Source: a virus
Reading direction: 5' to 3' (one strand)
Virus record (IMG/VR): IMGVR_UViG_3300046009_001256
Location: 1-30,374 of that record
DNA: 30,374 nt
Part shown: positions 1,791-30,041 of the stretch, piece after piece
Position numbering within the stretch: the stretch's first letter is position 1
How the letters are laid out: each line of letters opens with the position of its first letter
Notes under the pieces: model-generated
Database searches by the model: none
Seen by the model: the letters and a program-made list of their open reading frames with translations, nothing else
What the model was told of the DNA's origin: nothing
Translations under genes and position numbers: made by a program

Positions 1791-2183
1791 ATGGCAGCAT
1801 TATCAAATTACGCAGAGAAGTTATTGCTCGATTGGGCGATGACTACAGGCTCTGCAACACGACCAACAGCATGGTACGTTGCATTATACACTGCAGCTCC
1901 AGATGATACAGGTGGTGGTACAGAAGTTTCAGGTTCAGGTTATTCACGTCAATCAGTAACATTCGGTGCAGCATCAAGCCCAGGTGGTACGACTTCAAAC
2001 ACAGGAGCAGTTACATTCACAGCATCTGGTGGTTCTTGGGGTACAGTATCTCACATTGGTATCTTTGATAACTCATCTGGTGGTAACTTGTTATGGCACG
2101 GTTCTATGACTGCATCTAAGTCTGTAGCTGACGGTGATACACTAGAATTCTCAATCGGCAATATTGATCTAACTCTAGCTTAA
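1791..2183 (+). CDS. Gp80-like phage structural protein
   Basis: The protein has 130 residues and matches in layout a widespread phage minor structural family (Gp80-like): an N-terminal helix (LSNYAEKLLLDWAM), a WYVALYTAAPDD strand near 28-39, a GSGYSRQSVTF segment near 47-57, and a C-terminal beta region with HIGIFDNSSGGNLLWHG. It is rich in Gly, Ser and Thr with no signal or membrane segment. A clear Shine-Dalgarno (AAGGGAGAA) lies upstream. Placement within the fibre cassette supports a virion appendage role, though the exact position in the virion is not known. Confidence 0.65.
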   Translation: MAALSNYAEKLLLDWAMTTGSATRPTAWYVALYTAAPDDTGGGTEVSGSGYSRQSVTFGAASSPGGTTSNTGAVTFTASGGSWGTVSHIGIFDNSSGGNLLWHGSMTASKSVADGDTLEFSIGNIDLTLA

Positions 2184-2185
2184 TC

Positions 2186-3067
2186 ATGGCTGATGGCTTT
2201 CGTGTTCTCGAAAATGGGGACTATAGGATCACGGAAGCAGATGTGTTCCGAATCACTGAGAAGTTCTCTGAACAGTTCAGTGATCTAAGTGCAACTGGAA
2301 GTTTAAGTGCACTTCAAAGTTTAAAGCAAGTAGGATTTTTTGATAATGGTGGTGAAGGATTCTGTGCATCAGTAGCTACTTTAACTAAGTATGGTGCAAG
2401 TGCCCTAACAGGTACAGGTACGTTAGATAATGTAGGTAATCTACAAGCAAAAGGATTCTCTAACTTATCAGCTCAAGGATCTTTAGATTCACAAGCTCGT
2501 GTAGTTAAATATGTATTTGCAGATTTAAGTTCTACAGGTAGTGCTTCATTTGATGGATATAGCACTTACAGAACAACAGTAGACCTAGCTGCAACAGCAT
2601 CTAAACTATCTGAAAACTATGCTAAGTTTAGTGGAGCTACACATAACTTTAATGGTGTAGCTACTATTACTGAAAACTCTAGACTCGTTGCTTATAGAAA
2701 TTCAGATCTACAAGCGACAGGTACACTAGCAGTAGTTCCAACACTAAGATTAAATGGAGCTACAAGTTTAACAGGCACAGGTAGTTTAAGTTCTATTGGA
2801 CTTAGAATTAAGTTTGCTGAATCAGCTCTTAGTGGAACTGGTAGTATAGCAGCAGATGGTGATAGTAAGTTAGGTGGATCTACAAGTTTAAGTGCTACAG
2901 GATCTATTACTCCTGAAGGAACATTGATACCATTTACTTCAACAATGTATGTAAAAGTTAGTGGAACATGGAAGACATCTACTCCCTATGTCAAACATGT
3001 TGGTACTTGGAAAGAACCAACTAGAATATACAAAAAAGTAAGTGGTGCTTGGAAGAGGGTTTACTAG
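2186..3067 (+). CDS. Repeat-containing tail fibre-like protein
   Basis: The protein has 293 residues in three parts. Residues 1-30 contain two RITE motifs (YRITEADV, FRITEKF). Residues 34-254 are built of about eleven 20-residue units with a core of the form L-[ST]-x-T-G-[ST]-L; clear cores begin at 34, 74, 94, 114, 134, 175, 195, 215 and 235, with two degenerate units between. Residues 254-293 contain three copies of a short Y-x-K-x-x-G-x-W-K motif (VKVSGTWK, VKHVGTWK, KKVSGAWK). The strict period suggests a beta-solenoid or fibrous shaft ending in a small beta cap. The next gene encodes a short relative with matching ends. No enzymatic motif is seen. Start ATG 2186 follows the previous stop by 2 nt. 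Confidence 0.6.
   Translation: MADGFRVLENGDYRITEADVFRITEKFSEQFSDLSATGSLSALQSLKQVGFFDNGGEGFCASVATLTKYGASALTGTGTLDNVGNLQAKGFSNLSAQGSLDSQARVVKYVFADLSSTGSASFDGYSTYRTTVDLAATASKLSENYAKFSGATHNFNGVATITENSRLVAYRNSDLQATGTLAVVPTLRLNGATSLTGTGSLSSIGLRIKFAESALSGTGSIAADGDSKLGGSTSLSATGSITPEGTLIPFTSTMYVKVSGTWKTSTPYVKHVGTWKEPTRIYKKVSGAWKRVY
2285..2947 (+). repeat. 60-bp coding repeat array (20-residue units)
   Basis: Within the gene at 2186, the LxxTGxL-type core recurs every 60 bp: cores begin at 2285, 2405, 2465, 2525, 2585, 2708, 2768, 2828 and 2888. Units at about 2345 and 2645 are degenerate, and one extra codon lies before 2708. The period is kept more at protein than at DNA level, which indicates old, selected repeats rather than a recent expansion. 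Confidence 0.75.
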
Positions 3068-3373
3068 ATGCCTCTAATTCAATACGGACAAGTAGAATCA
3101 GGAATCATTACAGATGTAACTCGTATTACTGAAGCATCAGATACTAGAATTACAGAAGCAGGTGATACTCGTATTACAGCTGAAATAGCCGTAAATAACA
3201 GTACAGGTTATTTAAACGCAATACCAACATTAACTACATTCTTTCAGAACATGTATTACAATGTTGGAGGTTCTTGGAAAATATCAACTCCTTATGTTAA
3301 TCATAATGGAACGTGGAAACTACCAGATCAGATTTATATTAAACAAAGTGGCAATTGGAAAAGGGTCTATTAG
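3068..3373 (+). CDS. Short paralogue of the upstream repeat fibre protein
   Basis: The protein has 101 residues. It starts with three TRITEA-type motifs (residues about 18-37), equivalent to the two RITE motifs of its neighbour, and ends with about 40 residues that match the neighbour's end, including P-Y-V, G-T-W-K and the terminal W-K-R-V-Y. The middle has one stretch, STGYLNAIPTL (about 45-55), resembling a single 20-residue repeat of the neighbour (ATGTLAVVPTL). It therefore looks like a tandem duplicate with one repeat instead of about eleven. The ATG directly follows the upstream stop, preceded by GAGGG as Shine-Dalgarno. Role: probably a virion appendage subunit. Confidence 0.55.
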   Translation: MPLIQYGQVESGIITDVTRITEASDTRITEAGDTRITAEIAVNNSTGYLNAIPTLTTFFQNMYYNVGGSWKISTPYVNHNGTWKLPDQIYIKQSGNWKRVY

Positions 3374-29842: not shown

Positions 29843-30041
29843 TTTCTACCTCCTTAAGTAGTTCTACATAGTGAATGACCTTATCTAAGTCATCTACTCC
29901 TCCTTTATCACGCCATCTACTGATGTATTTGATAATATTACCCTCAATATATGGGATATTATTAGCCGTAATATATTGAATTGGTTGGATTTTAAAGCCT
30001 TTATAATGCTGACCACCAATCTGTTTATCTAATGCACTCAT
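29694..30041 (-). CDS. DUF3310 protein with an extended C-terminus
   Basis: The protein has 115 residues. Residues 1-65 are a complete DUF3310 domain: DKQIGGQHYKGFKIQPIQYI (about 5-24), NNIPYIEGNIIKYISRWRDK (about 27-46) and GGVDDLDKVIHYVELLKE. T7 gp1.7, a nucleotide kinase, is among the proteins linked to this domain, which fits the neighbouring reductase, but activity here is inferred. Homologues usually end near this point; residues 66-115 are a basic extension translated from DNA that also encodes the start of the next gene. Either both frames are used or the stop was lost. An AAGGAG Shine-Dalgarno sits eight bases before the ATG, just behind a consensus promoter. Confidence 0.7.
   Translation of the reverse strand: MSALDKQIGGQHYKGFKIQPIQYITANNIPYIEGNIIKYISRWRDKGGVDDLDKVIHYVELLKEVEIGKSERNNRCPSSIKDSLKRGARKLGSYFWKTDKGTEIEYTGYDRVRIK
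29848..29855 (-). promoter_or_regulatory. RBS that fixes the TTG start at 29842
   Basis: AAGGAGGT on the minus strand, five bases before TTG 29842, is the strongest Shine-Dalgarno of the right arm. It lies within the DUF3310 coding sequence, where it reads as Lys-Glu-Val, just where a typical DUF3310 domain ends. Confidence 0.7.

Follow-up and report, generated by a model that had tools for sequence, protein, structure and literature searches.

The window, by which we mean the whole stretch of DNA analysed here, is a virus record of 30,374 bases that lies near the OM43 phages MEP401 and MEP402 (PMC10580990). The feature under study is an ORF of the tail-fibre gene cluster, in agreement with a first-pass annotation that had called its product a fibre protein. 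For brevity this product is referred to as the rope, and its upstream neighbour as the bead gene. Elsewhere in the window, AT-rich short-period repeats and a 24-bp near-tandem repeat were found at 265-370 and 29931-29976.

Table 1. Features of the putative fibre locus, with positions in the window.
Feature	Position	Strand	Remarks
Putative bead protein, homologous to gp80 of GP4 fibre I	1791..2183	+	PF23140 E 3e-45; PDB 8jou_a E 8e-13
Putative rope protein	2186..3067	+	293 aa; ITE module at the N-terminus, then 11 units of 20 residues, then the Trp module at the C-terminus
N-terminal module MADGFRVLENGDYRITEADVFRITE..., residues 1-31	2186..2278	+	invariant alignment columns; dN 0 to 0.04
11-unit array, residues 32-252	2279..2941	+	profile unit calls
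Unit starts (window rope)			residues 32, 52, 72, 92, 112, 132, 153, 173, 193, 213, 233
Unit 2, core degenerate	2339..2398	+	degenerate across whole 11-unit group
Extra codon, residue 152, at junction of units 6 and 7	2639..2641	+	spacing 21 there
C-terminal Trp module, three ~13-residue repeats, W at 262, 275, 289	2942..3064	+	also in ORF 3068-3373
Short paralogue of 101 aa with ITE and Trp modules, without array	3068..3373	+	

The autocorrelation of the rope was strongest at a lag of 20 residues (z 8.9); over 1000 shuffles, the best lag had a 99.9th percentile of 4.5. A counting profile trained on 21 other ropes only, of 9 and 10 units and with the 11-unit group left out, placed 11 units at spacings of 20,20,20,20,20,21,20,20,20,20, with or without a penalty on other spacings. 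The window rope scored 193 to 197 with this profile, whereas 300 shuffles reached at most 12.8 and eight other window proteins stayed below 0; both the shuffles and these proteins were assigned essentially one unit and no score. A self-trained profile ran across whole proteins and overcounted, and cross-protein or other-protein profiles were used instead. The first-pass annotation had described about eleven units at 20-residue spacing, interrupted by one extra codon and two degenerate units, all of which held: the spacing is 20 nine times and 21 once, and the degenerate units are unit 2 (FDNGGEGFCASVATLTKYGA) and unit 7 (HNFNGVATITENSRLVAYRN). The span it had given, 2285-2947, covers a real array but began on the core L, two residues after the true start, and its core L-[ST]-x-T-G-[ST]-L, which suits the most frequent units, is too narrow to describe the family.

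Between units of the window rope the mean identity was 0.43 in DNA (maximum 0.57) and 0.26 in amino acids, and tandem repeat finding on the DNA did not report the array. The dN/dS of the rope between close relatives was 0.15-0.35, and units of different phages were 0.47 identical at equal positions and 0.25 at different positions. Recent internal duplication is disfavoured because same-position units are more alike, the DNA has diverged and dN/dS is low. Judged from these comparisons, the array is old, fixed in position and kept by purifying selection, much as had been proposed from the diverged unit DNA. The composition of the rope is of low complexity and rich in Ser, Thr, Gly and Ala, and no Pfam family covered the array at its gathering score (best 11.5 bits, cut-off 27).

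An alignment-based search identified 36 viral-contig loci. Unit numbers were counted in 34 ropes, from 32 contigs together with MEP401 and MEP402; three loci matching the C-terminal module only and one frameshifted locus (L040) were dropped, and CRP-4, CRP-5 and Venkman were treated separately. The ropes carried 11 (n = 12), 10 (n = 13), 9 (n = 8) or 6 (n = 1) whole units, and the comparison among related phages that the first-pass annotation had proposed thus gave a fixed spacing as well as a variable number: the spacing was 20 throughout, except that eight of the 11-unit ropes contained one spacing of 21. Only 3 units were recognisable in CRP-4 and only 2 in CRP-5. In L040 (2200-2475) the rope frame is broken after 91 aa and the match continues, which reflects either a frameshift or a sequencing error. 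In the group of MEP401 and MEP402 (L001 3256-4071) lag 40 exceeded lag 20, as though units came in unlike pairs.

The bead gene directly upstream of the rope matched the Pfam family 'Podophage GP4 fiber I protein gp80' with 154 bits. In the PDB entry 8jou, to chain a of which the gene also matched, gp80 is present in 10 chains, and the phiM5 record states that a gp80 homologue was detected in the proteome of the phiM5 particle. Two tandem gp80 domains were found in one 267-aa ORF of another contig (L183 5995-6798), a natural fused bead pair.

The linkage between gp80 and 20-residue periodicity was assessed in 160 contigs picked by gp80 alone, in two sets from two gp80 queries, and an ORF was called periodic when its top lag was 20 or 40 with z of at least 4. 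The neighbour ORF calling retained 160/160 gp80 loci, whereas another ORF caller lost genes in GC-rich contigs (128/160 retained). The ORF following gp80 was periodic in 53/76 contigs of the first set and in 17/73 of the second, the remaining 56/73 of the latter falling below the cut. Periodicity was found in 14/69 and 6/63 ORFs at position +2, in 0/65 and 5/56 at +3 and in 2/52 and 2/48 at +4. Before gp80, the -1 ORF was periodic in 0/76 and 2/76, and the ORFs at -2 to -4 in none (0/68, 0/58 and 0/45 in the first set; 0/58, 0/40 and 0/30 in the second). When the search started from the rope, gp80 was directly upstream in 78/78 contigs that extended far enough upstream (of 80), and likewise for all 34 window-family ropes that could be assessed; another 3 loci, which matched through the Trp module alone, were without gp80 upstream. 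These counts do not represent independent events, because the contigs are related to one another. A quantisation of lengths modulo 20 (R 0.68 versus 0.22 in other neighbours) was set aside: modulus 10 gives 0.73, and shared descent inflates the value.

All 7 annotated phages whose records matched the rope also appeared among the gp80 matches. In unrelated annotated phages the gene adjoining gp80 was often 20-periodic, as in POI1126 (gp16, z20 6.7), ct2t2046 (11.6), BcepMigl (gp57, 3.4), ctjtQ328 (10.8) and phiM5 (3.5). A 20-periodic gene precedes gp80 in prophiGD16-1 (z20 5.4) and lies eight genes from it in Venkman (z20 10.8). Altogether, z20 was at least 3 in 10/18 annotated phages examined, MEP401, MEP402 and CRP-5 counted in, and below 3 in the genes examined of the other 8/18 (CRP-4, Itty13, PVJ1, Lietuvens, CcrSC, ACP17, DB2 and phiCbK). 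Repeats of other periods were also observed, namely one of 22 residues (z 12.7) in gp11 of Octadecabacter phage DB2 (L298 6211-7737), whose gene is the third after gp80, and a strong 17-residue repeat (z 23.8) in Venkman gp55 (L051 9759-11951).

In one contig of 61,129 bases, gp80 matched the 8jou chain at 100% identity over the 135 residues compared, and from this sequence match the contig is presumably GP4. The ORF after its gp80 encodes 325 aa, with lags 10, 20 and 40 at z 4.8, 4.7 and 4.4, and a profile from other phages placed 11 units in it at spacings of 18-22 (score 68, at most 13.7 in 300 shuffles); this 11 is the best chain rather than eleven clear units, because some units score near or below zero. 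GP4 fibre I is reported to consist of five gp80 dimers joined by an elongated rope protein, and five such fibres reportedly sit on a 15-fold adaptor where head and tail meet. The 10 gp80 chains of 8jou fit these five dimers. A PDB sequence search with the candidate GP4 rope gave no chain match among chains of identified residues, those of unknown residues only falling outside such a search. The window rope, the BcepMigl rope and a profile of six GP4-like ropes had no relative in the PDB, and two other window ORFs, one of them considered a possible adaptor, had no match there.

In the largest group of ropes, 116 distinct ropes had 10 (n = 82), 9 (n = 16), 6 (n = 10), 8 (n = 3) or 12 (n = 2) units, and 5, 11 and 17 units in one each. 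The share of 10-unit ropes is inflated, because the ropes collected rope-first were ranked by their similarity to a query of 10 units, and the prevalence of 10 units may reflect shared descent. All 1185 spacings in 138 ropes of this group were exactly 20. In the window family, unit number clustered by lineage on a gp80 tree with few well supported branches (6 changes versus 13.7 when shuffled). In the largest group, different unit numbers were found beside near-identical bead proteins: gp80 pairs of 97.7%, 96.9% and 94.5% identity accompanied ropes of 10 versus 6, 8 versus 12 and 9 versus 17 units, respectively. Among gp80 pairs at least 90% identical, unit number was equal in 1566 and unequal in 144; in one of the unequal pairs both ropes are 295 aa long but received counts of 10 and 9, and unit counts may therefore be off by one. 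Near-identical gp80 with different unit counts implies that the rope changes length by whole units while the bead stays constant, and lends indirect support to the earlier suggestion that unit number sets fibre length.

The N-terminal ITE module of the rope was well conserved within the family. Phages with 10 or 11 units have the 101-aa paralogue as a gene of its own, whereas in those with 9 or 6 units, and also in CRP-4 and CRP-5, it makes up the C-terminal domain of the rope. From this fusion the paralogue is probably a cap or connector, and it suggests that rope and paralogue act together at one end. Within the 101-aa ORF, a 24-bp tandem repeat (2.3 copies, 3125-3179) encodes an ITEA-DTR repeat.

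Structure prediction with AlphaFold2, run from shallow alignments and without an oligomer, gave a pLDDT of 39.9 and a pTM of 0.29 for the window rope (26 sequences) and 45.6 and 0.47 for its most regular relative (27 sequences). The models displayed an alternating strand pattern at low confidence, and a Foldseek search of the low-confidence rope model against the PDB returned nothing at E 0.001; the weak matches, at E 0.13 or worse, were mostly beta-solenoids and are not taken to demonstrate a fold. Taken as they are, these models would count mildly against a self-standing solenoid and would fit a chain that needs a partner.

Based on the linkage to gp80 and the likeness to GP4, we consider it reasonably probable that ORF 2186-3067 encodes the rope component of a bead-and-rope fibre like that of GP4, in which each unit docks approximately one gp80 and unit number sets bead number. 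The first-pass annotation had suggested a beta-solenoid or thin filament with a rung of 20 residues. The fold predictions did not support a self-standing solenoid, and the upstream GP4 fibre I bead gene, unseen at that time, points to a more probable function for the repeat. A trimeric or monomeric solenoid, or another beta-rich filament with one rung per unit and gp80 as a mere neighbour or at its base, would account for the exact spacing with almost no indels, for the alternating strands and for the solenoid-like matches. We regard it as unlikely, since one of the two poorly modelled proteins is nearly perfectly regular, the Foldseek matches fall short of significance and the tight gp80 linkage is left unexplained. 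That linkage also speaks against a flexible linker or surface-binding protein structurally uncoupled from gp80, its repeat kept by internal duplication. The low-complexity composition would suit such a protein, but the position-specific likeness of units, their diverged DNA and the low dN/dS make this very improbable.

The ratio of units to beads is a separate matter. Each unit might serve a gp80 dimer, or units might alternate in their roles, so that bead number would differ from unit number; the stronger lag 40 in the group of MEP401 and MEP402, the 7 units only of the BcepMigl rope and the 5 or 6 of other ropes would agree with this, and gp80 copy number is known for GP4 only. The 11 units and 10 chains of GP4 are nearly one to one, and we hold a rope with a dimer per unit, or with alternating units, to be somewhat improbable. 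The same numbers can be read against a strict one-to-one relation, as 11 is not 10, some GP4 units are poor and BcepMigl has 7. Odd or even unit number was also considered as an indication of dimers, but it was not robust and was dropped.

The bead-and-rope fibre may be depicted as follows: Gene 1791-2183 would supply the bead and ORF 2186-3067 the rope. Each 20-residue unit would form a short, mostly extended segment, whose core L-x-G-x-G-x-L of alternating hydrophobic and small residues would dock about one gp80 subunit, and 10-11 units would carry about ten subunits, or five dimers. The ITE and Trp modules would attach the ends of the rope to the virion and to the component that follows, and the 101-aa paralogue would cap or lengthen one end. 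By gain or loss of whole 60-bp units, bead number and fibre length would change with the bead gene untouched. The contact between rope and gp80, the single subunit per unit and the roles of the end modules are what we infer. Tentatively, the 20-residue unit might also be a general docking site for one gp80, and the array a bead-counting ruler that sets fibre length in many otherwise unrelated phages, with the GP4 rope encoded by the gene after gp80.

The proposed fibre resembles GP4 fibre I (Zheng et al. 2023, PMID 37660940) in that a bead gene of the gp80 family is followed directly by a 20-residue repeat protein, with 11 units by best chain in GP4. It differs in rope sequence and in the ends, the window having the ITE and Trp modules and GP4 other ends, and in the presence of the separate 101-aa paralogue. 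MEP401 gp59 and MEP402 gp62, of Methylophilales phages of the Zobellviridae, are the same protein as the window rope (43-45% identical) and are adjoined by gp80 and the 101-aa ORF; they have 10 units instead of 11 and are annotated just as tail protein or hypothetical protein. In Anabaena phage A-1(L) the neck fibre consists of five extended fibres of repeated beads at the head-tail junction, the beads being gp81 trimers, about 14 per fibre, and no rope is named in the passages on it (PMC10966104). The likeness of A-1(L) to the proposed fibre is one of bead-chain design. A literature search, to which subscription papers including that on GP4 were not open, found no paper on a 20-residue repeat tied to gp80 or to the GP4 rope.

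With the bead-and-rope reading, an anonymous repeat protein becomes one half of a two-gene fibre kit that is found together with gp80 in many phages. If true, the count of 20-residue units in a genome would predict the approximate number of beads per fibre, and the setting of side-fibre length would become testable in phages with 6, 10 and 17 units.
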